From a bacterium (GTDB lineage Bacteria; Zhuqueibacterota; Zhuqueibacteria; Zhuqueibacterales; Geothermadaptataceae), in assembly GCA_024275575.1 (NCBI GenBank), contig JAJRYV010000076.1, forward strand, positions 1 to 64,000: a DNA stretch of 64,000 nucleotides, given 5' to 3'. Under the pieces are notes generated by a model. The model saw only the letters and a program-made list of their open reading frames with translations, made no database searches and was not told where the DNA came from. The stretch's first letter is position 1, and each line of letters opens with the position of its first letter. Positions 43,024 to 59,568 of this stretch are shown here, in pieces. Position numbers and translations under genes: made by a program.

Positions 43024-46000
43024 ATGGAAAGCAACTCGGTTAAAATGAAAATCACAACAGGAATGAAAATTGTAGCATGGATTGCTATATTCACTTCAAC
43101 TGCTTTTGCCAATCCTGCCCCGCGATTTACGGCATTCTCCGCGACGTCATCAACGCTGGTCGCCGGTAAAACAGCAAACTATACGATCACTTTTACACCA
43201 AGTACAGTCGTTACAAAAAATGCGCAATTCACCGTCAATTTTCCGGCGAGATTTGACCTGACGGGAGTGAATAGCGGCGCAATTCTGAATGGCGGCATTG
43301 ATGGTACTATTTCAGTTACCAATCACCCTGGTGCCGATAGTGCGAATTATGTCATCATTACTCGAAATAATGATGGCACATCTCCCTTGCTCGGTACGGA
43401 ACTTCAACTGCGGTTTGATGGCGTCGTCAACACTGATTCAACCGGAGACTTTACTCTGACGATCAGGTACTCCGGTTCTGGTGAAACACCGAGCAATACA
43501 ACCGTCACAATCACACCGGATGTGCTCGATCATTTTATCGTGACCAATACTGCGGACGGCAATGTTGCGACGCAAACTGCCGGCACCGATTTTTCTATTA
43601 AAATCACGGCAAAAGATCAGTACGAAAACACCGTGACGAGCGCTACCAACAGCTTGACGCTCTCCGATAATACCGCAACATTGACACCGACATCAGCCAC
43701 GCTGGCAAGTGGAACGGTTACGGTGAACAATGCCAATATCACCAAAACCGGCGCTGCAGTCAACATCACCGCGACCAGCGGTGCGATTACCGGCACTTCG
43801 AACAATTTTACCATCGATCCCGGTGCTCTCAATTATTTTACAATTACCGACACTTTTGATGCCGGCATCGGCAACCAGACAGCGGCCTCCGCATTTACGA
43901 TTAAACTCACGGCTTTCGATCAATTTGACAACACAAAAACAGATTACACCGGTTCACCGGCGCTTACGGTCAACAAGGGGGATATATCCCCTGCTTCAGC
44001 GGTATTTTCGGCAAATGGCACAGTAAATGTTAGCACAACGATTAATACAGCCAACACCGGCGTGACGATCATCGCCACGGATGGTGCTGTTGCCGATACT
44101 TCAAATGCGTTTGATGTCGTTGTTGGTGCTATTGTATCGATCAAAATTCTATCGGATGCTTCAGGAAATACCGCGGTTTTATCCGGGAAATCCGTAACGA
44201 CCGACTCTCTGATCATAGCGCATACAGCAGGTTTTGATGCCGGCGGTAATTATGTTCAGGATGAAATCGCCAGTTGGACTTTGAGTGACACCTCTGTTGG
44301 TGATCTTTCGGTGACCACGGGTGTGTCAACAACTTTTGACCCGCGTAAACCGGGAACGAGTGAATTGCAGGCCAGCCATTCAGCTACAGGAAGCAGTGCC
44401 GGTTCTGGAGATTATACTGTTGCTGTGGGTGCCGTTCAACACGTGAAAATCTTGACAGGCGCTTCCGGTAATACGGCCGAGCAAGGTGATGCAACAGTCG
44501 TTTCGGGAGCGACGTTGACCGTGCATGCAGGTGGTTATGATTCTGATTTTAACTATGTGCAGGATGAAACGGTGAGCTGGAGTGTCACCGGCGGCATTGG
44601 CTCAATTGATACCGGACCGAGCGTGAGTGCTGTTTTTACAGGTTTAACCGTCGGCACGGGGCTCATCAAAGCTGATCATGCTTCTGTCAATGTACTCGAT
44701 ACGTATTCCGGTACGATAACGGTTAGTCTCGGCAGTATCGATCATGTTTTATTACGCACTGCAATCAACGGCGGTGGTCAGGTTTTTACAACATATACCA
44801 TGACGGCAGATGAATCGGTAACGATTTACGCCGCCGGCTACGATGCGCAGGATAATTACATTGGTAACGAGAGTGTGACCTGGTCAGCAGCAAGTGGATC
44901 TTTTTCACCAACAACCGGCGCCACAACGGTGTTTTCTCCGACTGTAACGGGAAATGTGACCGTTGTAGGTACACCAACAACCGGCACAGCCGGTTCGGCG
45001 ATAATAACAGTTAATCCGGGTGTGCCGGCGGGAACCCTTACCCTCACACCGGCGGCCACAACTCTGCCGGCGGATGGTTCATCGGAAACCACCGTGACCT
45101 CGAGTATTATTCAGGACGCCAGCGGAAACAATGTCGGTGCGGGAAAAGAGTTTACCATTTCTTTGAGCAATTCCTCTCTTGGAACGATTTTAAATGATGC
45201 CAATACGAATCTTGTCGGTGTGCAAATCGCTACTGATGCGAGCAGCAAGCTGGTTTTTATTTTTCGTGCCGGCACAATCGGCGGCACAACGAGTATATTT
45301 GCCAGCAGTGTCGATGGGTCGGCGAACGGCAATACGGAAATATCGCTGAGCAGCATGAACATCGTATCGCTTTCCACGGCTTCCTCCACTGTTTCCCGTG
45401 GCCAGCAGGATGCACAAATTACTTTAACGGTTGAAAATAACGGCGCACAGGATATTACAATAAGCTCGGCAAACCCGACATTCACCAGCGCTTCGGATGG
45501 GGTGACACCTTGGACCGGTTTCGAAAATATTACCAGGACCAATCCGGAGATTACCAGCATTCCGGCAAATGGCGGATCAGTAGCCTTGACTTTTAACGTC
45601 GATATTACCAACAGCGCCGCAGTCGACTCGGTCATCGTCGATGGCATCGTAAACGGCACAGCTTCCGGTACTGCTGTTAGTGATTCTGCGGCAGAGAACC
45701 GCGCACCGCGCTGGAATATTCAAAAAAATCCAACTGTTGACGTCGTTTCGGTTGTGGCGGCTGATGCGATCGTTGACCAGGGAACCGCCGGACATATTGT
45801 AAGTGTGACGGTGAACGTTTCCGGTGCTGATGCGGAAACCGCTGACGCTGTTATCGATAATATTAATTTGGTGTTTAAAGACGGCAATACCGATGTCTCA
45901 ACCGGATACATCGTCTCTCCGGTTGCCGGAAACCCGATTGTGATTCCTGGCTCCGGTGGTAATGTGATCCTTGATTATAAAGTGGATATTCTCTCGCAAG

Positions 46001-48312
46001 CCCAAATTGGTGTTATCACTATTGATGCCAAACTCTACGCGCATGATGCCAATTCCGGTTTGCAGGTTTCTGACACCACTGGAGCCGGAGCTGCGGGCAC
46101 ATGGACGGTTGAGAGCTCGGAATCGGTAACGATTGTTTCTGTGACACCGAGCCAGTCAACTGTTTCTGCAGATATGACAAAACAGTGGACGCTCAGTGTT
46201 GTGGTCGATAACAGCAGTTCGAGTACGGTTAATGTAATCAGTCTGGATTTGCGGTTTTTTATCGGTGCTGTAGAGAAGACGAGTGAATATACGATCGTTC
46301 AGCCGACTTTGACGGCCATAGCGCCGCACACCCAGGGTACTTATATTTTTGCCATCGATACAACAGGCTCGAGTACCGGGCTGGTTTCGGTGGATGCTCA
46401 TTTTGTCGGCTCGGATGGCAGTCTGATCGATCTGACTGATGCGAACAGCACGTTTACAGTGCAATCTCCTGCTGTTGTTTCTATTAAAGAAATGATCGTT
46501 CCGGCTTCTGCAACGACGGGTCAAACCCGGCCGTGGCAGGCAAAAGCTGTTTTGCAAAATACAGGTCAGGCAAGCGCTGAAATCCATTTTAATGTCGATT
46601 CAACTTTTTATCTGTTCAGTGATACCAATGGGTATGCGATTGCCAATCCAACCCAACTTGCGGGTGGAAACATGTTTCTTGCAGGAAATTCTGTTGATAC
46701 ACTGACTTTTGTTGTCAATACAACTGGCAGCGTCGTCGGACAACTTGATGTCGGCGCTGTTGTGCGAGGTTATGATAAAAACTCGAATGTGGTTTTCAAA
46801 GATTCTACAACGGCTCTCGAGTTGCAATCGGTGATAATTCAAACACCGGCCACGCTGACGATCGATTCAACTTATATTTCCAGTTTGAATGCACCGTTAG
46901 TAAACCGCTTGCAGAGTTTTCAAATTCGTGTGCGGATTAAAAACGAGGGACAGGAATCATTGGACAGCGTCGTTGTGGCGCTGGCGAGCGATGAACTTGC
47001 CTCGCCATCGGGTTTTGCATCGCAAACGGCAGCGTATACGGTCCCGGGACTGAGTTCGGTTGAAATTCCGGTCGATATTACCGCAGCCGACCGCTCCGGT
47101 TTTGAGACTTTCACAGCTTCGATATACTCGGCAAAAGGATACAATACCGGCACTGCGATTATGTCTTCCGCTGCAATCGATTCCAGCGAACAAGCGACCT
47201 TGCAGACGGCGGCGGCATTGCAGATCGTGCAGGTTGTTTCCTCGAATGCTTCTGTTTTTGCCAACCAGCTCGTACCCTGGACGGTGACGGCAACGGTTAA
47301 AAACAATGGCGAAGCAACAGCACAACTGCGCCCACAGGCGGATGATTTGACTTTCGTCGTCAATTCACTCAACGATACACAAAATTATACAGTGACCGTC
47401 GGCGGAACGGTTGATTTGCCTGGAAACGGTCAGGAAACGGACCTCGTTTATACGATCAATCGCACCGGTATTCAAAGTGGCACGGCCGATATATCGGTTG
47501 ATCTCGGCGCTATTGATGTTAATACCGGTGCGTCGATCGGTGCTGCCGGCAATGTCTCCAAATTGATTGAAGAAAATTCATCGGTACTGATTATAAAAGC
47601 AGAAATTTTGGCGCCTAATGTGGTAAACTGCGAGGGTATTGTAAATACCGGGCAAACATTCACTATTCGGGTTTCAGTTAAAAACAACGGCATTGACGCC
47701 GTGCGTGACGCCGGCGTTCGTTTGCAGAATATGTTTGCCGGTGGTGCATTCACCGAAGTGTCAGCCGTCATCGATACGATTCAACCGAATCAAATTAAAA
47801 CAGTCGATTTTGCTATTGTTGCGGGGATAAACCAAAACGATATTGGCGAGACAGTCGTGGCGCATTTGGATACGGCGACGGTCATTTCCAGCAATAACGG
47901 CGCAAATATTGGTGAGCCGGTGAAAAATGAAGTCAAATTTTATACTCAGGTTCCTGCTGAGCTTGAGGTTACGGCTTCATCGGATTTTATCCATTACCAG
48001 TTGCAAAAATCTCAGGAATTTCGCGTGATGGCAACGGTTGCCAATCGCGGTCAGGCCGCTTTGTCGGGCACAGGGCAGTTGCGCATCGAATTTCCTGCCG
48101 GTTATCAATTTTCACAGGACTCGGTGCAGACAAATAATGTGAATTTTGATATGATTTCACCGGTATTAACATGGCGTCTCATTTCACCCGCAACGAACAG
48201 TAGTTTACCCGGCGGTGATCCGGTGAGTATCAGCTTTCTCGGGACGCCGACCGACGTCAATAGCGGGGTTGCTGCAGCACAGTTTAAGGCCGGTGATACT
48301 TTGTTTTATTAG
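43024..48312 (+). CDS. Giant secreted Ig/CARDB-repeat protein, 5' part ending at an in-frame TAG
   Basis: This 1762-residue piece has a signal peptide (KIVAWIAIFTSTAFA; the start may be ATG 43024, 43045 or 43063). After it come beta-sandwich repeats. Two filamin/invasin-like repeats share FxIKxTAxDQ (from about residue 168). Three Big-like repeats share AGxDxxxNYV near residues 402, 502 and 604, a period of about 100. From about 780 there are many CARDB/DUF11-like repeats of the type VVVDNSSSSTVNV or VRIKNEGQESLDSV. It is rich in Thr, Ser, Val and poor in Cys, as in surface adhesins or stalk proteins. TAG 48310-48312 interrupts the frame, which goes on coding to 50619. Confidence 0.82.
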   Translation: MESNSVKMKITTGMKIVAWIAIFTSTAFANPAPRFTAFSATSSTLVAGKTANYTITFTPSTVVTKNAQFTVNFPARFDLTGVNSGAILNGGIDGTISVTNHPGADSANYVIITRNNDGTSPLLGTELQLRFDGVVNTDSTGDFTLTIRYSGSGETPSNTTVTITPDVLDHFIVTNTADGNVATQTAGTDFSIKITAKDQYENTVTSATNSLTLSDNTATLTPTSATLASGTVTVNNANITKTGAAVNITATSGAITGTSNNFTIDPGALNYFTITDTFDAGIGNQTAASAFTIKLTAFDQFDNTKTDYTGSPALTVNKGDISPASAVFSANGTVNVSTTINTANTGVTIIATDGAVADTSNAFDVVVGAIVSIKILSDASGNTAVLSGKSVTTDSLIIAHTAGFDAGGNYVQDEIASWTLSDTSVGDLSVTTGVSTTFDPRKPGTSELQASHSATGSSAGSGDYTVAVGAVQHVKILTGASGNTAEQGDATVVSGATLTVHAGGYDSDFNYVQDETVSWSVTGGIGSIDTGPSVSAVFTGLTVGTGLIKADHASVNVLDTYSGTITVSLGSIDHVLLRTAINGGGQVFTTYTMTADESVTIYAAGYDAQDNYIGNESVTWSAASGSFSPTTGATTVFSPTVTGNVTVVGTPTTGTAGSAIITVNPGVPAGTLTLTPAATTLPADGSSETTVTSSIIQDASGNNVGAGKEFTISLSNSSLGTILNDANTNLVGVQIATDASSKLVFIFRAGTIGGTTSIFASSVDGSANGNTEISLSSMNIVSLSTASSTVSRGQQDAQITLTVENNGAQDITISSANPTFTSASDGVTPWTGFENITRTNPEITSIPANGGSVALTFNVDITNSAAVDSVIVDGIVNGTASGTAVSDSAAENRAPRWNIQKNPTVDVVSVVAADAIVDQGTAGHIVSVTVNVSGADAETADAVIDNINLVFKDGNTDVSTGYIVSPVAGNPIVIPGSGGNVILDYKVDILSQAQIGVITIDAKLYAHDANSGLQVSDTTGAGAAGTWTVESSESVTIVSVTPSQSTVSADMTKQWTLSVVVDNSSSSTVNVISLDLRFFIGAVEKTSEYTIVQPTLTAIAPHTQGTYIFAIDTTGSSTGLVSVDAHFVGSDGSLIDLTDANSTFTVQSPAVVSIKEMIVPASATTGQTRPWQAKAVLQNTGQASAEIHFNVDSTFYLFSDTNGYAIANPTQLAGGNMFLAGNSVDTLTFVVNTTGSVVGQLDVGAVVRGYDKNSNVVFKDSTTALELQSVIIQTPATLTIDSTYISSLNAPLVNRLQSFQIRVRIKNEGQESLDSVVVALASDELASPSGFASQTAAYTVPGLSSVEIPVDITAADRSGFETFTASIYSAKGYNTGTAIMSSAAIDSSEQATLQTAAALQIVQVVSSNASVFANQLVPWTVTATVKNNGEATAQLRPQADDLTFVVNSLNDTQNYTVTVGGTVDLPGNGQETDLVYTINRTGIQSGTADISVDLGAIDVNTGASIGAAGNVSKLIEENSSVLIIKAEILAPNVVNCEGIVNTGQTFTIRVSVKNNGIDAVRDAGVRLQNMFAGGAFTEVSAVIDTIQPNQIKTVDFAIVAGINQNDIGETVVAHLDTATVISSNNGANIGEPVKNEVKFYTQVPAELEVTASSDFIHYQLQKSQEFRVMATVANRGQAALSGTGQLRIEFPAGYQFSQDSVQTNNVNFDMISPVLTWRLISPATNSSLPGGDPVSISFLGTPTDVNSGVAAAQFKAGDTLFY

Positions 48313-50619
48313 GTTGGTGATCTGGAGTTGGCCATTGATTCTATCCGTGTTATTTCGCCGCCGGGCTCTGCTGAAAGCAATAAAATTTCTTCCAGCTCAA
48401 CATTTGTATTGAAAGCGTATATTTATGGTTGGCGCCGGTTGATGAACACAACAGCGACATTATTCTTGCCGGCCGGGTTTGTTTTTGCCGCTGGTGGAGG
48501 TGGTGCATTGCCGATCTCACCTGTACAGGGTGACGAAAACCTGGGCGTTGTTGAATGGACTGTTGTCGCTCCATCTGATGCTTCGGTGACAGAAGCAAAA
48601 TCTTTTGGTGTGACGTTGCTGGGTTTTGATGGTGCAGGAAATCCTGTCACCCGCCAGCGCAACATCAGTCTTGATCTTGTACCCAGAGCTTTGCTGCAAC
48701 TGGTGATGGGTGATGGTGAATCAACAAATTTGAGCCTGGCGATGGGGCAAGCCTATGATTTACGGGTCATTTTACAAAATACAGGATCTGCAGATGTTTC
48801 AAATGCAGCCACGATCGTGATTGATACAACAAGTTCGAAAATAACTTTTATACCGGCGCCGGTGCAGAGTGATACACTTGAAGGCGTAACTGTTGGTGAT
48901 ATCAATACCTGGCGTTTGCAGATGCCCAACCAGGCGGTGCAAACATCGCTTAAGGTGAGACTGATCGATCCGCGCCCGCTGGATATCTATACCGGCCAGC
49001 AAGCGGCGGTTGTACCCGGCGGCGATGAATTGCACATCAATATTTCCGTGCGTGAAACCGGGTCTATCGTCGTTAATGAATTTGCAATTTTTGAACCGGT
49101 GGGTGCAATCGATAATACGATCAGTACTGATCAGCAGTTCAAAATAAAGGTCAACTTAACCGGCCTGGAAGTCAAGGATGTTAACATCACCCTGCGCCAG
49201 GAATCCGGTAGTGGTTTTATCATTGCCGATGCCGACCGGACGCCAACATCTATCGATAATTTTAACTCATTGGGCGAGACTTTTGAATGGACGGTAACCG
49301 CGCCGGCCAATGCGCTTAGCGAGTCATTCGTTGTTGGCTGGAATTATAAAGATGCAACCAGCGGTGATGGTGTCTTAACCGGCGAATCCAGTAAGTTGTC
49401 GGTGATAACGGTTCGCAAAGCCGCTTATTCTTTCTCGGCCAATATTGTTGCACCGGCCTCGGCAACAGATAAAATCGTTTCTCCAAATCAGGAGTTCACG
49501 ATTCAGGCGACGTTGAATAAACTTGGGACGGCCAATTTGCAGGCCGGCTCGTTGATCAATGTTCGACTGAAACCGTTGCCGCCGGGTTATGAAACGGTAT
49601 CACCGGAGAATCAATCCGTCGGCAGCCTGGGTGGCGCGATGAACTGGATAATTACTGCACCTGAGAATAAAACAGAGACAGAAACGATTGAATTTGAATT
49701 ATTCAGCCTGCCGCTGGATGAAAACAGCGGTACCACGGCTGAATTTTCACAAACCAATATTCCAATCCCGATACGCACGAAAAGCGGACAACTGGAAATG
49801 CGCGAAATGTATATTTCGGCCAGCAGCGTTGTTGCTGAAGGGCAGCAAGAAGTCGAATTGTTGCGTCTTGGATTTACCAATAAAAGCGATGAAAATGTGA
49901 GCTTGATCGATTTACTGTCGATCAGGTTGGATGTCCTCGATCAATTGGGCGAACTTCTGCCGGCAAGTGAGGTTTTGTCCAGTCTGACGGCAAAACAAAT
50001 AATCGCTGATACGCAAACCGTTGCATTGAACACCAGCATTAATCCAGCAGATTTTACTGAAACCTGGGTTGAGACAGTTTTTCCAGATACATTGAAATTT
50101 GAACCCGACTCCTTGTTTGTTCTCTCGCTTTACGGTAAAATTAAATCGGGCACGAAAGATAAAAAATTCTCATTGCGGATTTCTGAAAAAAGTTATATCA
50201 ACGCGCAGGATCATGACAGCCAGGCTCAGGTTGGTCTGGAACTGGTGGATAAAAACGGTAACGGCCGCGATAATTTGCAAATTTCCTCAAATATGATGGT
50301 TGTCGTCGGCAGTGATTTTTTAGAAAACTTCTTCAACTACCCCAACCCGTTTAATCCAAATAGCGGGTCGACACGATTCTCGTACACATTGCAAGAGGCT
50401 TCAGAAGTCGTTTTCGAGGTTTACACATTGTTTGGTGAGTTGGTTTATCATCAGGAATTTAGCGCCACAGATCCCCAAGGAATGGGTGGCGGCGCCGCAC
50501 GGACAATAGAATGGAACGGGCGCAATGGAGCACATCAAATCGTTTTAAGCGGTATTTATGTGGCTTATATTAAAGCAGGTTCTAAAATCGCAAAGACTAC
50601 AGTTGCGGTTATTCGCTGA
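48313..50619 (+). CDS. Giant secreted protein, 3' part with FlgD-like / YPNPFNP sorting tail
   Basis: This continues the frame of the 43024 gene after the TAG: VGDLELAIDSIRVISPPGSA and further CARDB-like repeats, about 768 residues. The end carries NYPNPFNPNSGSTRFSYTL and then EWNGRNG and LSGIYVAYIKAG, the FlgD-Ig-like tail common in FCB secreted proteins and similar to type IX secretion sorting domains. A TTG at 48328 could start a separate product, but there is no signal peptide and no ribosome site, so it would not be exported. The piece is therefore probably the far end of one protein, silenced unless the stop is suppressed or is an error. Confidence 0.78.
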   Translation, partial: VGDLELAIDSIRVISPPGSAESNKISSSSTFVLKAYIYGWRRLMNTTATLFLPAGFVFAAGGGGALPISPVQGDENLGVVEWTVVAPSDASVTEAKSFGVTLLGFDGAGNPVTRQRNISLDLVPRALLQLVMGDGESTNLSLAMGQAYDLRVILQNTGSADVSNAATIVIDTTSSKITFIPAPVQSDTLEGVTVGDINTWRLQMPNQAVQTSLKVRLIDPRPLDIYTGQQAAVVPGGDELHINISVRETGSIVVNEFAIFEPVGAIDNTISTDQQFKIKVNLTGLEVKDVNITLRQESGSGFIIADADRTPTSIDNFNSLGETFEWTVTAPANALSESFVVGWNYKDATSGDGVLTGESSKLSVITVRKAAYSFSANIVAPASATDKIVSPNQEFTIQATLNKLGTANLQAGSLINVRLKPLPPGYETVSPENQSVGSLGGAMNWIITAPENKTETETIEFELFSLPLDENSGTTAEFSQTNIPIPIRTKSGQLEMREMYISASSVVAEGQQEVELLRLGFTNKSDENVSLIDLLSIRLDVLDQLGELLPASEVLSSLTAKQIIADTQTVALNTSINPADFTETWVETVFPDTLKFEPDSLFVLSLYGKIKSGTKDKKFSLRISEKSYINAQDHDSQAQVGLELVDKNGNGRDNLQISSNMMVVVGSDFLENFFNYPNPFNPNSGSTRFSYTLQEASEVVFEVYTLFGELVYHQEFSATDPQGMGGGAARTIEWNGRNGAHQIVLSGIYVAYIKAGSKIAKTTVAVIR

Positions 50620-50631
50620 GAGTTAAAATAT

Positions 50632-52605
50632 ATGGTTCAGGAAATGAAGATCACATCAAGGATGAAAAAATCGTTTGGTGAAAGAAAAAAAGGAAAAATG
50701 CTTTTCCTTTTACACTCGGGATTATTGCTGTTTTTAAGCTTCACTTTTTGCGATCAGCTCTTTTCCCAGAATGGCGGTTTAAAACCGGTTTTTCAACAGG
50801 CTTTCGGGGCGCGCGGCATAGGGCTGGGCGGCGCCTACACCGCTTCGCCTGATGACGCAACAGCGATTTTTTGGAACCCTGGAGGGCTTGATATTCTCGA
50901 GCGAAAATCATTTTCGCTCTATGTTTCCAATCTGCTTGTGGGGCAGTCACAATTCCTTGCCTATGCCCACCCGACGGTCAATATCGGTACTTTTGGTGCT
51001 GCAATGATCCGTGTTGGTATTTCCTCCAACGATCTTGTTGGGCGAGATGGAAACGCGAATATTACGACGAATTTCGGATATTCGCATTCACTTTATATAT
51101 TATCATATGGAAAGAAAATAAAGTATAACCTATCGTTTGGTATCAATACAAAAATCGAGCAGCAGGATTTTGAAAGCCAGAGTGCTTCCGGCTTTGCTAT
51201 GGATGTTGGTCTGGTTTACCGCCCGGATTGGATGCCTGAGGTTCTGCAGAACTCTTCCATAGGTTTTATTATACAAGATATGGTGACGCCGGGATTGAAA
51301 TTTACCGGTACACCGGCAAAAACACCACGAAACGCAAAGCTGGGATTAGCTTTTCCTTTTGACATTTCCAGCGGCGCCGATCGATTTACCTTGTTCATGG
51401 ATATTGAAACCTCATCATATAGCGATATTTCGACCTCGTTTCATTTGGGTGGCGAATATAATTACCATGATACCGGCATGTTGCGATTTGGCCTCGATGA
51501 TAGCTCCGTTGTTTTTGGCGGTGGTGTTGCATTTAATAACAAAGGCATCAACTACCGGCTTGATTACACCGTTTCAAATTATGCAATTCTCGGCGGACCC
51601 GAAAAAGCGCATAATTTCTCGTTAACAATCAATTTCGGCAAAACCAAAATACAAATTATCGAAGCAGCGAGAGAGCGGCGCGACCGGGAGATCGAAGCAC
51701 AAGTTCTGCAGCGCGAACGCATCAATAAAGGCATCGACATTAAACGTCATGTCAACGCGGGTAAATCAAAATATCGTGCGGAAAACTTCCTCGGCGCTAA
51801 AATTCAGTTTGATGAAGCGCTTCTTCTCGATCCGGATAATGCGACAATCAAGCAGTGGAGTGAGCGCTCTTTTGTGCAATATAAGAAATTGCAAAAGGCC
51901 CGGATTGAAGCGGCTGCTGCCGAGAATCTGGCACGCCAGGACATCATTCGCAAAAGGGAACAAGTGCAGAATTTGCTTGAAAGTGGGAAAACTTACTTTG
52001 AGGCTGGAAAATGGAAAGATGCGCTTGCTGAATGGCACCGGGGCCTGGAACTTGACCCGTCGAATGCCGAAATTAAAGACTGGATTGCACAAACTCGTAT
52101 TCAGATCGATCTAAAAATTGACGAATTGATAAAAGAAGGCGATCGTCTTGCGCGGCAGGGGAGTTATCCTGATGCAGTCACTAAACTCAGGGAAGCCTTG
52201 CAAGTCGGTATCGAAGATAGTGCAACACGCAAATTGATCAACAGGAAAATCGGCCAGTGGAACAGCCGGCTCAATTTTGATGCCGCGTACCAGCAGGGTC
52301 TGGTGCAGTATGAACGTCGAAACTGGAAGGAAGCGATTCGCTATTTTAACCAGGCGCTCAAAGCAGAACCTGATAATAGAGCGGTCAAACACAAAAGAAA
52401 GTTGGCCAATTCCTGGCTCAATGCTAATCAGGACAAGTGGTTAAATAAAAAAATCAGGAAGGACTGGCAGCTTGCCAAGCGTTATAACAGTCAGGGACGG
52501 TATCGTGAGGCTTTGGAAATATTAAAAAGAATATATGAGCTGCAACCCTTTAAAACGCCCATTCTGGTTGAGCTTGAAAAAGCAGAAAAAGCATTGAATG
52601 AATAA
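50632..52605 (+). CDS. PorV/PorQ-family outer-membrane protein fused to TPR domain
   Basis: This 657-residue protein has a signal sequence (MLFLLHSGLLLFLSFTFCDQ region). The PorV hallmark FGARGIGLGGAYTASPDDAT, then IFWNPGGL, is followed by a barrel of about 14 predicted strands to near residue 340 (HNFSLTINFGKTKI). PorV shuttles type IX secretion substrates in Bacteroidetes. Unusually, a C-terminal half of about 300 residues consists of TPR-like repeats: FLGAKIQFDEALLLDPDNAT, WKDALAEWHRGLELDPSNAE and WKEAIRYFNQALKAEPDNRA. These would lie in the periplasm. It starts 12 bp after the giant protein, suggesting that protein is its client, and 16 bp before the kinase/phosphatase gene. Confidence 0.8.
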   Translation: MVQEMKITSRMKKSFGERKKGKMLFLLHSGLLLFLSFTFCDQLFSQNGGLKPVFQQAFGARGIGLGGAYTASPDDATAIFWNPGGLDILERKSFSLYVSNLLVGQSQFLAYAHPTVNIGTFGAAMIRVGISSNDLVGRDGNANITTNFGYSHSLYILSYGKKIKYNLSFGINTKIEQQDFESQSASGFAMDVGLVYRPDWMPEVLQNSSIGFIIQDMVTPGLKFTGTPAKTPRNAKLGLAFPFDISSGADRFTLFMDIETSSYSDISTSFHLGGEYNYHDTGMLRFGLDDSSVVFGGGVAFNNKGINYRLDYTVSNYAILGGPEKAHNFSLTINFGKTKIQIIEAARERRDREIEAQVLQRERINKGIDIKRHVNAGKSKYRAENFLGAKIQFDEALLLDPDNATIKQWSERSFVQYKKLQKARIEAAAAENLARQDIIRKREQVQNLLESGKTYFEAGKWKDALAEWHRGLELDPSNAEIKDWIAQTRIQIDLKIDELIKEGDRLARQGSYPDAVTKLREALQVGIEDSATRKLINRKIGQWNSRLNFDAAYQQGLVQYERRNWKEAIRYFNQALKAEPDNRAVKHKRKLANSWLNANQDKWLNKKIRKDWQLAKRYNSQGRYREALEILKRIYELQPFKTPILVELEKAEKALNE

Positions 52606-52621: not shown

Positions 52622-55600
52622 TTGTTTAAAGATGTCATAAAAGAGCAGCTAAAAGTCCCCGCTCACATCGATTATCTCGGCGAATTACGTGATTTTGTCA
52701 TGCGTGTTGGCAAGAGATATGGCCTCTCCGGAAAAATCATCAACGCCTATAAACTGGCGATTGATGAAGCGGGTACGAATATTATCCGCCATGCCTATCG
52801 CGGGCAAGAGGAACCGGGATTCATTCTGCTGCGCGTTATCATCCGGAAAAACAGCGCCACTGTCAGCCTTATTGATACGGGTAAATACTTTGACCCGAGA
52901 ACGGTAAAAGCACCGGATCTCGACCGCTATGTCGAAATCGGTAAAAAAGGCGGTCTCGGCATCTTTATCATCCGTAAGTTGATGGATGAAATCGACTACC
53001 GCAAGACAGAAGAAGGCAATGAGTTGCGGATGACCAAATACCGGGACAAGCGCGAGAAAAGCACCAGCGCTCGCCCCGATGTTTTAAAATCGACAGCAGG
53101 CATTCCGTTTACGCTCAAGGGACAATATTTCTGGCGAATTTCGCTGGCTTTTACAGTCGCCGTTATGGGCAGTTATGGCTACTTGTTTTATAAGGCCGGC
53201 ACAGACAAAACCCGCGAAGCTTTCAACCGTTTTAACAGTATCGGGCAGACGGCAAAATTCAACCTCGAATCGGTTGCAAAAAGGAATCTTGAGCTGAAAG
53301 ATGAAGCAAAGCGAAAAGATATTCTACGCAACGAATACTATGATGAAATTTCATTGGCTATTACGCCTCTTGTTGAAGAGAATAAGGAGCAAATCGTCGA
53401 TTTATTTGTTGTCGATGGCCACCAGAATTTGATTTCGGGGCATGTCAACATCAACTGGCAGGGAGCGGAATATAGTACTGAATATCCGCAAATCCCGCCA
53501 GATGCCGAGCAGTTATCCGATAGTGTAAAGCTCTATGTCTATGAGCTCACTCTCGAAAACGAAAAAGTACAGCAGACGGAAATCTATGATTTCAGGATTC
53601 CGGTTTTCTATCCGGATACGGGTGCAAAATATGGTGATATTCATGTTTTAGTGTTGAAAGAACATATCGCCGCTGAAATTTCAACTCTGCGCTGGGCCTA
53701 TTTCAAGCTGACACTGTCAATTCTTATTTTGGCCTACGTCGGTGTATTTGTTCTCGTTTATATTTTACTCAATCCGTTCAAGAAATTGGCAAGCTGGATC
53801 CGCGCAATCGACCATGGGGAGGTGGGGGATGAGATGGATATCGATGCCTCAACGGAAATCGGTGAAATTGCGCAAGCCTTTAGCGAGATGACGACCAAGT
53901 TTCGCGAATCGCAAAAAAATCTGGCAGAACAGGAACGCTTGCAAAAAGAAATGCAGGTCGCTCAGGAAATTCAACAAACCCTGCTGCCCTCGGAATTTCC
54001 AAAGCTGGAAGGCTGTGAAATCGCCTCATACTATCAGGCGGCAAAAGAGGTCGGTGGTGATTACTATGATTTTGTCCAGGTGGATAAAGATACCCTGGGC
54101 ATTGTTGTCGCAGACGTTTCCGGTAAAGGTGTTCCCGGCTCGCTTGTGATGACGATGATTCGCACTGCCCTGCGCACTGAAGCCCGCAGTGTGCATGATG
54201 CCGCAGAGGTGTTGGCACGCGTCAACGATTTTGTGGCTACGGATATGAAAAAAGGGATGTTTGTTACGGTTTTTTATGTAATTATCGATACAAAGAGACG
54301 ACGTCTGAATTTTGCGAGCGCCGGGCATAATCCGATGATACTCTACCGCCCATCAACCCAAAAAACCTACTATTTAAACCCCAAAGGTTTCCCTATCGGC
54401 ATCCAGTTGGCCGAAAAGGATTTATTTCGTCAGTCGATTGAATCGGATACGATTCAAATGACCGAAGATGATATTCTTCTGCTTTATACCGACGGGATAA
54501 CCGAAGCGATGAATGGACGGCGGCAATTATTTGGCGAAGAACGCCTGCTGAAGATAATTCGGGAGCAGGGCGGCCTCGCTGCATCAGAGTTTGTCGACAA
54601 GCTGCGCCTCGAAATCGAGAACTTTATCGAAGGCAATTTGCAATATGATGATATCACCTGTGTGACGGTTAAAGAAGAATCAAATTCTGAAAAAGAAGAA
54701 TTGCGGCGCGCTAAAATTGCGCATCGGGAAATTGAGGCGGGTACAAATATTCGCGACGCCTGTGAAAAAGCCGGGCTGACAACCTATGCTTATTATAATA
54801 AATATAAAAAGCAATTCGAAGATCACGGTATTGATTCCTACGAAATTGATGAAGAGGTTTCTCTCGAGGCCAAGCATTTCAGTATTGAAGATAAAACAAA
54901 AGTATTTGATATTATTAAAAACCATCCGGAGTATGGCGCAAAGCGAATTAGTGAAGAATTAAATACCGAGAAATACAGTTTTACCGTTATCTCTGAAAAG
55001 AAAATTTACGATGAACTCGTTCGCAGCAGACTCAATACAAAGCAACTTCGGGAAGCGTATATCGCCCGAGGAACACGCAATAAAAAACGCATCAAACCGC
55101 CCGGCACACCCATGCTTACGCTCGATGGTCGTATTATTATCGACAGACAAGAAGAGCCGGAAATTCCCGAGGTCAAACCTCTTGAGATTGAAGAGCCGCA
55201 ACCAGAAAAAGAAAAAACGACTGAAGTCAACATATTAGACAAAGAAGAGAAGCCGACTTCCATCGATGCTGAAGCCGACACTATTTCTCAGCCATTAGAA
55301 GATTTGTTGCAAAATCCTGCCGGAGAAAACCCGACCAATACAGAAAGCAGCGAAAAACCTGAGCAAGAATTGACCGTTCCTGATGGAGCGTCTGCCGGGG
55401 AGCCTGTTGATGCGAACGAATCATCGCTTTCATTTCTCGATATTCTGCACGGTGGAAATATTAATCCCCCCGTTGAAGACCGGGAGACTACGGCAGTAGA
55501 TGAACAAGAAAAATCTGCGGAGCAAATCTTGTCGGAAGAACCGGATAACACTTCGATAGATGCTGTTGACGCCTTGCTGCAGCAGGAAATTTCAAACAGC

Positions 55601-56473
55601 TTTGACGATGAATCTTCTTCGATCGTCATGGAGCAGGATGACGAGGAGTCTGCAGAAAATGCCGAAGAAGTAAATTTACAGGAACCTCTCGAAAGCAGCA
55701 ATCATGTTGCTGCTGAAGCTGCTCCTGTAGAAGACGCGAAAACATCGAATATCTCTAATGGTGAGGAACGGGAAGACCCTGCTTTTAAAGATGAAACGCT
55801 GGAATTACTCAGCACAGATCTGCTGGCGACTGAAGAAACTGATGACGGTGACACATCCCCGTTCATTGAAGTGACTGAAGATGGTACGGAGAAGTTCGAA
55901 GCTAACGACAAATACAGCAGGGAGAATTCGGACGATACCGGAATTTTCATTGAGTTGTTTTCTGCTGCCAACGATGCGGAACCAGATGAACAGGACATGT
56001 TGCCGATGTTTTCAGACCCACAGGAAGTCTTTGTTAAAAAGCGAAAGAAACCTGCCGGGACTGTAAAGCGATCGCAAAATGGTGAAGATGAAAAGATTGG
56101 GAAAATAAAAGAAAAAGAACAACTGCTCATCGATGGGTTACGTTGTTATAAACGCAAGGAATTTGAACAGGCAATCATTAAATTTAACGAGGCGGTTCAG
56201 AAACATCCCGATTTTAAAGAAGCTCATAGTATACTCGGTAATGCATTTTTCCGCACAGGGCAGTATGACCAGGCCATCAAAGCATACCAGGAAGTGATAC
56301 GGCTGGATAGTACGGATGCGACGGCGCATGAAAATATCGGTGTGATATACGCCAATCAGGGCAAGTATTCGCAGGCGGTGGATCAGTGGAAAAAAATTCT
56401 CAAGCATGACCCTTTGCGGGCAGATATTAAAATAAAAATTAATAAAGCATTGGATTTAATAGGGCATAAATAA
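52622..56473 (+). CDS. Multidomain partner-switching regulator: RsbW-like kinase, membrane sensor, PP2C/SpoIIE phosphatase, HTH-like segments, TPR
   Basis: This 1283-residue protein has these parts in order. Residues 1-140: GHKL serine kinase of the RsbW/SpoIIAB type, with DEAGTNIIRHAY (N53) and GKKGGLGIFIIRKL. 169-190: transmembrane helix. 191-358: extracytoplasmic sensor. 360-383: second helix. 384-435: HAMP. 440-685: PP2C/SpoIIE phosphatase with all metal aspartates (GGDYYDF 478-484, ADVSGKG 497-503, YTDGITEA 622-629, YDDIT 675-679). About 690-735 and 750-815: two HTH-like, transposase-like segments. About 840-1150: acidic disordered linker. About 1160-1283: TPRs. The only start in frame after the upstream stop is TTG 52622. 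The STAS partner follows. It likely both phosphorylates and dephosphorylates STAS proteins. Confidence 0.88.
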   Translation: MFKDVIKEQLKVPAHIDYLGELRDFVMRVGKRYGLSGKIINAYKLAIDEAGTNIIRHAYRGQEEPGFILLRVIIRKNSATVSLIDTGKYFDPRTVKAPDLDRYVEIGKKGGLGIFIIRKLMDEIDYRKTEEGNELRMTKYRDKREKSTSARPDVLKSTAGIPFTLKGQYFWRISLAFTVAVMGSYGYLFYKAGTDKTREAFNRFNSIGQTAKFNLESVAKRNLELKDEAKRKDILRNEYYDEISLAITPLVEENKEQIVDLFVVDGHQNLISGHVNINWQGAEYSTEYPQIPPDAEQLSDSVKLYVYELTLENEKVQQTEIYDFRIPVFYPDTGAKYGDIHVLVLKEHIAAEISTLRWAYFKLTLSILILAYVGVFVLVYILLNPFKKLASWIRAIDHGEVGDEMDIDASTEIGEIAQAFSEMTTKFRESQKNLAEQERLQKEMQVAQEIQQTLLPSEFPKLEGCEIASYYQAAKEVGGDYYDFVQVDKDTLGIVVADVSGKGVPGSLVMTMIRTALRTEARSVHDAAEVLARVNDFVATDMKKGMFVTVFYVIIDTKRRRLNFASAGHNPMILYRPSTQKTYYLNPKGFPIGIQLAEKDLFRQSIESDTIQMTEDDILLLYTDGITEAMNGRRQLFGEERLLKIIREQGGLAASEFVDKLRLEIENFIEGNLQYDDITCVTVKEESNSEKEELRRAKIAHREIEAGTNIRDACEKAGLTTYAYYNKYKKQFEDHGIDSYEIDEEVSLEAKHFSIEDKTKVFDIIKNHPEYGAKRISEELNTEKYSFTVISEKKIYDELVRSRLNTKQLREAYIARGTRNKKRIKPPGTPMLTLDGRIIIDRQEEPEIPEVKPLEIEEPQPEKEKTTEVNILDKEEKPTSIDAEADTISQPLEDLLQNPAGENPTNTESSEKPEQELTVPDGASAGEPVDANESSLSFLDILHGGNINPPVEDRETTAVDEQEKSAEQILSEEPDNTSIDAVDALLQQEISNSFDDESSSIVMEQDDEESAENAEEVNLQEPLESSNHVAAEAAPVEDAKTSNISNGEEREDPAFKDETLELLSTDLLATEETDDGDTSPFIEVTEDGTEKFEANDKYSRENSDDTGIFIELFSAANDAEPDEQDMLPMFSDPQEVFVKKRKKPAGTVKRSQNGEDEKIGKIKEKEQLLIDGLRCYKRKEFEQAIIKFNEAVQKHPDFKEAHSILGNAFFRTGQYDQAIKAYQEVIRLDSTDATAHENIGVIYANQGKYSQAVDQWKKILKHDPLRADIKIKINKALDLIGHK

Positions 56474-56492
56474 TACAATCCTATCGTTTCCA

Positions 56493-56521
56493 TTGACATT
56501 TTCTTGCGTGTATTGTATATT
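56493..56521 (+). promoter_or_regulatory. Near-consensus sigma70 promoter for the STAS gene
   Basis: TTGACA at 56493-56498, a 17-bp spacer, TATATT at 56516-56521. It lies in the 90-bp gap after the kinase/phosphatase gene and 40 bp before the STAS start. It resembles the promoter of the tRNA cluster at 59595. Confidence 0.75.
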
Positions 56522-56563
56522 ATTTAATGCTTAATTTGCGAAAAATATCTTTAGGAGATAACC

Positions 56564-57238
56564 ATGGAAGGTATTCAGGTGTCGGTTGAACACACAGGTG
56601 CGAACAGGAATATCGCCGTAATCAAGGTCGGCGGTTATATTGACACCACCACATCAGCAGAGTTGGAACATTCATTAAATACCTTAATTAAGGCCAATAC
56701 TTTTAAAATCATCATCGACCTCGGCAACGTCGATTATATCAGCAGCGCCGGTTGGGGTATTTTTATAAGCGAAATTAAGGGTATTCGTGAAAAGGGTGGC
56801 GATCTGAAGTTGATTCGCATGATTCCGGATGTTTTCGAAGTTTTTGAATTGCTTGAATTCCATTATATCATCAAAGCTTTCGATACGCTGGAAGAAGCAG
56901 TCAACGATTTTGAAGGTGTGAGCACACCTGCGCCTGCGAGACCGGCGCCACAGCCTGCGGGAGAATACAGAAATGCTGCCGAAAATGAATTATCCGGCAG
57001 GGAGAACAAAGCAGATTCTTCATATTCAGCCGCACCAACAAGTGCGCTTTCATCAAATGATTATGTTATTCGGGCAGCGACAGAGAACCCCATGGCTGGT
57101 GTGTTAAAGTTGAAAAAACTACTAAAAAGCCCGAAATATGGCAACGTACGCATCGGTTTTTTTCAATTGCGAAAAGTTTTAAAACAGCATAATCTCGATT
57201 CAAAAAACAAAAGAGTCGAATACGCGAAACCCGGTTGA
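56564..57238 (+). CDS. STAS-domain anti-sigma factor antagonist with C-terminal extension
   Basis: This 224-residue protein begins with an RsbV/SpoIIAA-like STAS domain (about 1-115): AVIKVGGYIDTTTSAELEHS, IIIDLGNVDYISSAGWGIF. Ser61 aligns with the phosphorylated serine of RsbV and SpoIIAA. A Pro/Ala-rich linker (about 118-165) leads to a small C-terminal domain (about 178-222) with LLKSPKYGNVRI and LDSKNKRVEY, which matches a segment of the upstream kinase/phosphatase. In partner switching the unphosphorylated antagonist binds the kinase and frees a target such as a sigma factor. TAGGAG precedes ATG 56564. It has its own strong promoter. Confidence 0.9.
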   Translation: MEGIQVSVEHTGANRNIAVIKVGGYIDTTTSAELEHSLNTLIKANTFKIIIDLGNVDYISSAGWGIFISEIKGIREKGGDLKLIRMIPDVFEVFELLEFHYIIKAFDTLEEAVNDFEGVSTPAPARPAPQPAGEYRNAAENELSGRENKADSSYSAAPTSALSSNDYVIRAATENPMAGVLKLKKLLKSPKYGNVRIGFFQLRKVLKQHNLDSKNKRVEYAKPG

Positions 57239-57442
57239 GAAAAAAGGTGGTCTTGATCCTCGCGGCACCTCCCCTCCTGGTTTTTTTTTCGCAACGCAGA
57301 ACAATAATCGGATATAATCGCCAGATACTGCATGCTTGCCATTTTAAATTGGCGGTCTAATTTATGGTGAGTCAGCGTGCAAACACCTCCGGCTTTAGGT
57401 TTAAGGCAGGGCATGTTCCTGCCTTTTTATGTTGGGATAATC
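57239..57442 (+). promoter_or_regulatory. Leader region between the STAS gene and obg
   Basis: This 204-bp gap has a nine-T run at about 57282-57290 after GGTG/CACC repeats, probably the terminator of the STAS gene (weak stem). It then has TTGCCA with an imperfect repeat near 57341. A clear terminator-like hairpin at 57403-57430 follows, just before obg. No gene is seen. Confidence 0.45.
57403..57430 (+). terminator. Terminator-like hairpin 13 bp before the obg start
   Basis: Stem AAGGCAGG (57403-57410), loop GCATGTT, stem CCTGCCTT (57418-57425), then TTT. Its place directly before the obg ATG suggests attenuation of obg rather than simple termination. Confidence 0.65.
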
Positions 57443-58423
57443 ATGTTTATTGATCGGGCAAAAATTTATGTTGAATCCGGCCGCGGCGGCAGCGGTTGTG
57501 TGAGTTTCCGCCGGGAAAAATTTGTTCCCAAAGGCGGGCCGGATGGTGGCGATGGCGGCGATGGCGGTAGTATAATAATTGTTGCCAATCCAGCGATGCG
57601 CAGCTTGCTGGATTTTCAACATAAAAAACATTTCCGCGCGAAAAGAGGTGAGCATGGTCGAGGGGCAAACTGCCACGGGAAAAATGGCGCCGACATTAAA
57701 ATAAAAGTGCCTGTCGGCACCGTTGCCTATGATGCTGATACAGGTAAAATGCTTGCCGACATCACGGAAGAACGACATAAGGTGGTTATTGCAAAAGGAG
57801 GTCGCGGTGGAAAGGGTAATGCCCGTTATAAATCTTCAACCCGGCAGGCACCCAGAAACTGGCAGACTGGCGAACTGGGAGAATCATACAATATCCGGCT
57901 CGAGCTAAAAACCATTGCTGACGTCGGCCTTGTAGGCTTCCCCAATGCCGGCAAATCGACATTTCTTTCCCGGGTTTCCTCAGCTCGGCCCAAAATTGCC
58001 GATTATCCATTTACGACTTTGCAACCCAATTTGGGAGTCATCAAATATCGTGATTTTTCCACTTTTGCCATTGCTGATATCCCGGGATTGATCGAAGGCG
58101 CACATAAGGGCAAGGGGTTGGGACATGAATTCTTGCAGCATATCGAACGTACACGAGTGCTGCTCTTTTTGATTGATCCCAATAGTGAAAATCCGTACAA
58201 TGATTATCAAATTTTATTAAACGAGCTGCAATCGTTCAATGCAAACCTGTTGACAAAACCCCGTATCGTCGCCATCTCGAAATGTGATACATTGGTCGAT
58301 GGCCTGCCTCCTGCGCTGCTTGCTCAGTTTGAAGAGCCGGTTTCGCCTGTTTCCAGCATAACCGGTGAAGGGATCGAAACATTGCTTGATGATTTGTGGA
58401 AATATATTAACGAACAGGGATAG
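57443..58423 (+). CDS. obg: GTPase Obg/CgtA
   Basis: Obg is an essential GTPase in large ribosomal subunit assembly and stress control. The 326-residue protein begins MFIDRAKIYVESGRGGSGCV, the glycine-rich Obg fold, with GGDGGDGGS and RGGKGNARYKSSTRQAP. The G domain has GFPNAGKSTFLSRV, DIPGLIEGAHKGKGLGHEFL and SKCD. A longer frame starts at GTG 57377, but the family start is at ATG 57443. The optional C-terminal OCT domain is absent. It lies after a terminator-like hairpin and before dprA. Confidence 0.96.
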   Translation: MFIDRAKIYVESGRGGSGCVSFRREKFVPKGGPDGGDGGDGGSIIIVANPAMRSLLDFQHKKHFRAKRGEHGRGANCHGKNGADIKIKVPVGTVAYDADTGKMLADITEERHKVVIAKGGRGGKGNARYKSSTRQAPRNWQTGELGESYNIRLELKTIADVGLVGFPNAGKSTFLSRVSSARPKIADYPFTTLQPNLGVIKYRDFSTFAIADIPGLIEGAHKGKGLGHEFLQHIERTRVLLFLIDPNSENPYNDYQILLNELQSFNANLLTKPRIVAISKCDTLVDGLPPALLAQFEEPVSPVSSITGEGIETLLDDLWKYINEQG

Positions 58424-58446
58424 TAACTTCAAGTTTTGGAGATGAT

Positions 58447-59568
58447 GTGGAACATTGGTGGGCATCTCAAAACGAATTGGCGCTGCTGTTGAATTTGACA
58501 CGGGTGAACGGGATCGGCCAGGCCCGGTTGCGCCGGTTGGTGCAAAACCTCAGGTGTCCATCAAATATTCTTGCAGTTTCACCACATGAATTAACAACGT
58601 TTGGTGGCATTAACAAAGAGCGTGCACTCGCCGTACGAAAGGCAGCAAGCGATCGGTATGGGGAATTGCAATTGGCAAAAGCCTCCGCTTTTGGTTGTGA
58701 AGCCATCTCCTTCTGGGATTCTCGATATCCGGCAAAGCTCAGAAATATTCCTGACCCGCCGATCTTGATATTCGTCAAAGGCAAGCTTGAAGTATTAAAT
58801 AAATTTGCAATTGCTATCGTCGGTACACGTGTGCCAACACCTTATGGCAGGAATATAACAGCCAAAATTACGCGAGATCTCATCGAATCGGGTATGACGA
58901 TTGTTAGTGGCCTGGCGCGTGGTATCGATACAATCGCCCATTCGGAAACAGTGAAAGCCGGTGGGCACACGATCGCTGTTTTGGGTAGTGGCTTCGACCA
59001 GTTATACCCGCCGGAAAATGGAAAGCTGGCAACCGAGATTTGTAAAAACGGCGCCGTTATTTCCGAACTTCCCTTTGGCGCTAAACCTGATGCGATGAAT
59101 TTTCCACGCCGGAATCGTATTATTAGTGGATTAGCTGCCGGTACAGTTGTGACAGAGGCGGGTGAAAAAAGCGGCGCCCTGATAACAGCTTATCTCGCTA
59201 TTGAGCAGAACCGTGAGGTATTTGCCGTGCCGGGTAGTGTTTTTTCACCAAAAAATGCAGGTCCGAACCGGTTGATTAAAGAAGGCGCCAAGCTCGTTAC
59301 CTCTGTTGATGATATTTTCGTCGAATTACCACGACAGGGAGAATTGTTTGCCAATTCAACCATGCGCCAGGATATGGCGCGCGAGTTCTCGATAATTGAA
59401 AAGGAAATACTCGCTGTTTTACGCGACGGTGAGAAACATATCGACAAGTTATCGCATCTGTTAAACAAAAGCACGCCATTGTTGTTGAGCGCCCTGTTAA
59501 AACTGGAGTTAGATGGTGTTGTGCAGCAACAGCCCGGCCAGATTTTCCTCTTGAATAAAAGTTATTAA
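58447..59568 (+). CDS. dprA: DNA processing protein DprA/Smf
   Basis: DprA binds incoming single-stranded DNA during natural transformation and loads RecA; many non-competent bacteria also keep it. The 373-residue protein has an N-terminal SAM-like HhH domain (LTRVNGIGQARLRRL). The Rossmann-fold core has AIAIVGTRVPTPYG, VSGLARGIDTIAH, VLGSGFDQLYPPEN, FPRRNRIISGLAAGTVVTEA and KSGALITA. A C-terminal winged helix (about 305-373) follows. GTG 58447 is preceded by GGAG five bases away. Confidence 0.95.
   Translation: MEHWWASQNELALLLNLTRVNGIGQARLRRLVQNLRCPSNILAVSPHELTTFGGINKERALAVRKAASDRYGELQLAKASAFGCEAISFWDSRYPAKLRNIPDPPILIFVKGKLEVLNKFAIAIVGTRVPTPYGRNITAKITRDLIESGMTIVSGLARGIDTIAHSETVKAGGHTIAVLGSGFDQLYPPENGKLATEICKNGAVISELPFGAKPDAMNFPRRNRIISGLAAGTVVTEAGEKSGALITAYLAIEQNREVFAVPGSVFSPKNAGPNRLIKEGAKLVTSVDDIFVELPRQGELFANSTMRQDMAREFSIIEKEILAVLRDGEKHIDKLSHLLNKSTPLLLSALLKLELDGVVQQQPGQIFLLNKSY

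Follow-up and report, generated by a model that had tools for sequence, protein, structure and literature searches.

How a partner-switching circuit delivers its output when no sigma factor lies nearby is the question raised by the locus at 52622 to 57238 of the window, by which we mean the whole stretch of 64,000 nucleotides that was analysed. The original prediction had placed a kinase, an extracytoplasmic sensor, HAMP, a phosphatase, HTH-like segments, an acidic linker and TPRs on one polypeptide, followed by a STAS gene. The coordinates of the two genes (52622-56473 and 56564-57238) proved exact, and Pfam domains confirmed the single chain of 1283 residues, referred to here as KINPHOS. Its features are as follows, all on the forward (+) strand.

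52622..56473, +: KINPHOS, predicted bifunctional membrane kinase/phosphatase, 1283 aa, TTG start
52658..53038, +: RsbW/SpoIIAB-type serine kinase domain (residues 13-139; Pfam HATPase_c_2, 2e-27)
53129..53191, +: probable first transmembrane segment, TM1 (about residues 170-190), moderately hydrophobic and assigned from its location between the kinase and the sensor
53192..53707, +: extracytoplasmic sensor, Cache-like and poorly conserved (about residues 191-362)
53714..53770, +: second transmembrane segment, TM2 (residues 365-383; Kyte-Doolittle 2.84)
53753..53902, +: HAMP (residues 378-427; Pfam 9e-6; present in 18/18 homologues)
54086..54673, +: SpoIIE/RsbU-type PP2C phosphatase (residues 489-684; Pfam SpoIIE 2e-51)
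54704..54826, +: first HTH, transposase OrfA-like (about residues 695-735; IS481 in 45/45 and IS3 in 44/45 homologues; AF2 helices)
54875..55081, +: second HTH, an HTH_21-like winged helix (residues 752-820), homologous by profile to the tail of the STAS protein
55094..55141, +: conserved basic motif KxPGTPxLTLDGxVI (residues 825-840), nearly invariant, directly after the winged helix
55157..56116, +: acidic low-conservation linker (residues 846-1165)
56138..56431, +: TPR repeats (about residues 1173-1270; Pfam)

The kinase domain matched RsbW in the PDB (6m36, 9.4e-12), and the statement that all key residues are present was borne out in an alignment of 54 sequences comprising orthologues and a few paralogues. 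The GHKL signature was found in full: E49 and N53 of the N-box were kept in 53 of the 54 sequences, the remaining one having a gap, and the G1 box (D85/G87) and G2 box (G111/G113) were kept in 52-54 of 54. PP2C metal ligands were likewise in place (D480, D483 and D498 in 54/54; D624 and D676/D677 in 53/54), with the metal-ligand motif starting 5′ of the SpoIIE match, at D480/D483. Identity to the window per block was 0.4-0.8 for the kinase, 0.5-0.96 for the phosphatase and 0.5-0.8 for the HTH region, against 0.1-0.3 for the sensor, the least conserved folded part, and mostly 0.03-0.25 for the linker, which had been put at about 300 residues and has 320, with a net charge of -65. This pattern indicates that KINPHOS is under selection along its whole length, sensor and linker excepted. 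TM2 was strong, while TM1 fell below the hydropathy threshold used. An extracytoplasmic sensor had been predicted, and a Cache-like region is there; an assignment to dCache was dropped, as dCache_1 appeared only once (E=0.085) and sCache_3_2 was found in 4/18 homologues. A search with a profile of residues 1-850 detected KINPHOS in 76/82 genomes of the phylum, the genomes without a finding being mostly incomplete, so in these relatives the domains remain fused and are not encoded by separate genes. Outside the phylum it was found in 6/208 genomes. Among named sequences, the 1283-aa protein came closest to one from a Calditrichaeota MAG, with 76% identity along its full length; further matches carried the label KSB1 and, in one case, Bacteroidetes.

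The gene downstream, STAS1, had been read as the STAS antagonist. That reading stood, but a winged HTH (wHTH) at its C-terminus had been overlooked.

56493..56521, +: promoter-like TTGACA-N17-TATATT before STAS1, near-consensus sigma-70
56564..57238, +: STAS1, STAS-wHTH protein, 224 aa (ORF and Pfam STAS)
56603..56899, +: STAS domain of STAS1 (Pfam 4.6e-17; Foldseek match to SpoIIAA/RsbV, probability 1.0)
57050..57229, +: C-terminal winged HTH of STAS1 (residues about 163-222, net charge +10)

Ser60 and Ser61 (56741-56746) were invariant in 44/44 sequences, and with the fold match this gives STAS1 a candidate phospho-serine; from alignment to RsbV/SypA-type motifs, Ser61 is the expected phospho-site. 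Kinase and phosphatase very probably act in opposition on this protein. In the gap before STAS1, a sigma-70 promoter match of at least 10/12 was present in 42/50 genomes versus 2.1 expected, which suggests that STAS1 has a constitutive-type promoter of its own; plausibly, we infer, the protein is produced in excess over KINPHOS.

The last 60 residues of STAS1 are predicted to form a four-helix domain (pLDDT about 90), whose helices have the same spacing as those predicted for the second HTH of KINPHOS. Judged by profile comparison, the two domains are homologous. hhalign gave 96.7% probability (E=3e-10), and the profile score was 53.7, where 40 column shuffles gave at most 15.8 and a reversed profile 13.4. 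The STAS-tail profile alone recovered the KINPHOS wHTH genome-wide, at E=3e-4 in the window's genome and down to 3e-8 in others, and in the reverse search the KINPHOS profile recovered outgroup STAS tails at about 1e-9. In genomes of about 5 Mb, matches fell only on STAS or KINPHOS-type ORFs as far as inspected (threshold E<0.001, with inspection of a subset of matches). Each of the STAS-tail matches listed for 40 genomes had the size of a small STAS protein, of a kinase/phosphatase or of STAS3, a longer STAS protein, and the ones inspected individually agreed. Thus, as far as inspected, the wHTH appears exclusive to this signalling set.

The HTH-like segments suspected earlier are real by the same kind of evidence. 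The KINPHOS pair matched the IS481 transposase HMM in 45/45 homologues (best 5.9e-14) over positions 1-124 of 284, which corresponds to the DNA-binding N-terminal HTH pair of IS481/IS3. The match stops at position 124, and no DDE (rve) catalytic domain is among the Pfam hits shown, so the region resembles the DNA-binding part of a transposase that was recruited on its own. A PDB sequence search with the wHTH profile gave no match, and Foldseek of the KINPHOS HTH region against the PDB gave nothing significant; its matches at E>1 include paired-domain and transposase DNA-binding domains (Pax, TnsB, IstA, SETMAR) and were not counted as evidence.

The overall layout had been regarded as without precedent, and here the original prediction did not hold. 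SypE of Vibrio fischeri already combines an N-terminal serine kinase, a central regulatory domain and a C-terminal serine phosphatase that work on one STAS substrate, SypA, and the syp locus, which the sigma-54-dependent activator SypG controls, has an exopolysaccharide/biofilm output (PMC3610818, PMC4517449). HsbR of Pseudomonas aeruginosa likewise acts now as a kinase, now as a phosphatase on a single STAS protein, HsbA (PMC5085249). The kinase-sensor-phosphatase layout is therefore already known from SypE/SypA, and KINPHOS shares its domain order in one chain with a separate STAS. SypE, however, is a soluble response regulator without TM, HAMP, HTH or TPR, whose central REC is replaced in KINPHOS by HAMP and a Cache-like sensor, and SypA is STAS-only with its target unknown, whereas STAS1 has a wHTH. 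HsbR is receiver-controlled, and HsbA acts via FlgM and HsbD, not DNA. Rv1364c of Mycobacterium tuberculosis also holds several partner-switch domains in one chain, but in the order PAS-phosphatase-kinase-STAS, with the STAS fused and no membrane sensor or HTH described.

For STAS1, the nearest likeness is CapS, described in 2026, in which STAS is followed by a wHTH and serine phosphorylation breaks the dimer and frees DNA; its kinase CapK is a GHKL kinase that also carries an HTH (PMC13373217). Both proteins have an N-terminal STAS (with a candidate phosphorylatable serine in STAS1) and a C-terminal wHTH. The wHTH of CapS is ArsR/MarR-like, though, and that of STAS1 transposase (HTH_21)-like. 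CapK, moreover, has the order HTH-STAS-GHKL with no phosphatase or membrane sensor, senses ssDNA and controls immune operons, while the neighbour of STAS1 is a membrane kinase/phosphatase and the flanks hold PorV, Obg and DprA. With the SypE order but no REC, and the CapS architecture but no CapK or immune genes, KINPHOS/STAS1 is filed as a member of neither. What appears to be new is a STAS-wHTH homologous to the HTH of its kinase, in a domain confined, as found, to these partner-switch proteins; kinase and STAS protein alike would have acquired DNA-binding domains from transposases.

A direct DNA output had been suspected from the HTH-like segments. That suspicion is strengthened, since STAS1 carries a homologous wHTH and the STAS-wHTH protein CapS is of a proven DNA-binding kind (PMC13373217), and on these sequence grounds we lean slightly towards such an output. 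In the scheme we favour, the Cache-like sensor and HAMP would set the balance between kinase and PP2C phosphatase, which in SypE is the task of the receiver; the kinase would phosphorylate, and the phosphatase dephosphorylate, Ser61 (or Ser60) of STAS1. The phospho-state would then decide whether the STAS remains with the kinase or instead forms a dimer that binds DNA via the C-terminal wHTH, as in CapS, and the IS481-derived HTH pair of KINPHOS may bind the same sites or dock STAS partners. Enzymatic activity, substrate identity, DNA binding, the sign of regulation and the ligand are the parts of this scheme that we infer. If it is correct, the CapS principle of a phosphorylated STAS-wHTH regulator extends beyond immunity, with a membrane sensor, and the built-in phosphatase makes a CapS-like switch reversible.

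The same domain could instead be a docking or dimerisation module by which KINPHOS picks its STAS substrates among approximately 15 STAS proteins, with a protein-protein output like that of SypA and HsbA, both of which work through protein partners. Occurrence only in the two partners would suit this, as would the high conservation of the KINPHOS copy (79% mean identity) in spite of its membrane tether. Of the loci outside the phylum, L156, L157 and L158 have clearly retained HTHs and L159 and L161 match weakly, whereas L160 has lost them from the kinase and keeps a STAS whose tail matches only weakly, again in line with docking. However, IS481/IS3 ancestry means DNA binding, CapS binds DNA, and the STAS tail is strongly basic (mean charge +7.6, n=44), so that we regard docking as the sole role as doubtful. 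The weakly basic KINPHOS wHTH and the lack of a Foldseek match do count against the DNA-binding scheme, as does the fact that no transcriptional output is known for SypE/SypA.

As to which genes would be controlled, the idea of a single STAS partner was too narrow. Two STAS-wHTH proteins occur in nearly every genome, and at least two in every well-covered one. By pairwise identities, the closest STAS to STAS1 in the genome is STAS2 (51% identical in the STAS domain), wHTH-less STAS domains of the genome reaching at most 39% to STAS1. In the window's own genome, STAS2 and STAS3 are placed as follows.

L100:7943-14445 (contig C20): sigma-54-type promoter followed by STAS2-wHTH, at the head of an exopolysaccharide operon with wza, wzc, epimerase and WbaP
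L101:4777-12870 (contig C112): STAS3, consisting of STAS, a long linker and an HTH_21-like tail, at a second locus of wza/wzc-TPR-CpsD-epimerase-deacetylase

In 29/29 genomes inspected, STAS2 has glgA or galT on one side and wza-wzc-epimerase-WbaP on the other. STAS3, in genomes that have it, belongs to a wza/wzc-TPR-CpsD-deacetylase locus, and was also found in L131-L135. A sigma-54 -24/-12 element of the form TGGCAY-N5-TTGYW precedes STAS2 in 18/29 genomes, compared to 0.05 expected from shuffled sequence, and it precedes any other gene tested in 0-2 genomes; it was first spotted by eye in the output of an operator search and then counted, that is, after part of the data had been seen. rpoN was present in 4/4 genomes checked. 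This element apart, neither gapped palindromes nor 9-mers revealed a shared operator upstream of the STAS2 operon, which counts against the scheme.

We therefore take exopolysaccharide and envelope genes as the most likely regulon, and the STAS2 and STAS3 paralogues as probable further substrates of KINPHOS, although with about ten other RsbW-like kinases in the genome they could have other kinases. Whether polysaccharide forms part of the regulon we judge evenly balanced. The explanation in its general form, an ancient one-chain phospho-switch with a STAS-wHTH DNA output onto envelope polysaccharide, we hold at about even confidence; the domains, catalytic residues, shared wHTH, operon order, position of STAS2 at the exopolysaccharide operon head and promoter types support it at the level of sequence. 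A bolder form, in which membrane KINPHOS itself binds, or competes for, the operators of its STAS substrates through the common transposase-derived domain, giving sigma-free transmembrane control of exopolysaccharide operons phylum-wide, is put forward tentatively. STAS2 at the head of a wza-wzc-WbaP operon and the near-universal presence of KINPHOS in the phylum likewise appear to be new. The output of STAS proteins encoded close to polysaccharide loci, SypA and its kin, has long been missing, and with a DNA-binding-type domain on the STAS and STAS2 heading a sigma-54-type exopolysaccharide operon it becomes directly testable.

The immediate surroundings of KINPHOS point to another possible target. 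Two conserved neighbours lie upstream.

48328..50619, +: large protein of secreted type whose C-terminal domain is type IX-like (matches below cutoff)
50632..52605, +: PorV-family outer-membrane protein with TPRs (NF033709 above cutoff)

Counted over loci with enough flank by a simple ORF caller, so that the counts are lower bounds, the PorV-like gene is directly upstream of KINPHOS in 51/53 phylum loci and is itself preceded by the large secreted-type protein in 48/49. A STAS with the invariant serine is directly downstream in 49/52, two STAS-less exceptions being the paralogues L076 and L077. The PorV-KINPHOS pairing recurs in 4/6 loci outside the phylum, and in a fifth (L161) a PorV-like gene lies one position further away. 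The switch might accordingly serve secretion or attachment through this PorV/type IX-like surface protein operon and not polysaccharide, leaving STAS2 with another kinase to control exopolysaccharide. But the neighbours may feed the sensor input rather than be the output, and STAS2 has a STAS1-like STAS and wHTH and sits in the exopolysaccharide operon, so we find this unlikely.

Classical partner switching, in which the kinase would be the anti-sigma factor of one of the approximately 20 sigma factors encoded elsewhere (as Sigma70_r2 matches) and STAS1 would free it, is decidedly improbable: kinase (RsbW/SpoIIAB-type), STAS (RsbV-type) and PP2C domains do resemble RsbW/RsbV/RsbU-sigma B with all key residues, but, as originally stated for the surroundings, no Sigma70_r2 was found on the window's contig (C52), nor in any conserved neighbourhood, the kinase shares its chain with a membrane sensor and the phosphatase, and STAS1 has its own DNA-binding-type domain.

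Several minor observations were made at these loci. In the window, two large secreted-type proteins (43024-50619) lie upstream of the PorV-like gene, the second with the weak type IX C-terminal domain; Pfam gave nothing above cut-off on either. In many genomes the STAS gene has Obg and DprA downstream (57377-59568 in the window). Obg reportedly interacts with RsbW-type proteins elsewhere (PMC3056739), but it is not claimed as part of the system because it lies within 6.5 kb downstream in only 32/49 loci, sometimes with other genes between. In a sister genome, an isocitrate dehydrogenase-like gene (L031:10722-12149) stands between STAS1 and Obg, where the window has none. Longer paralogues of 1640-1990 aa (L079-L083) keep kinase and phosphatase, but their HTH region is degenerate and neither STAS nor a PorV-like gene adjoins them. 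In genome G049 (L084:8021-12249), the KINPHOS and STAS genes are both split, probably by assembly frameshifts. In a single genome from outside the phylum, KINPHOS and STAS are separated by a ParA/BcsQ-like ATPase gene (L158:5452-6207).
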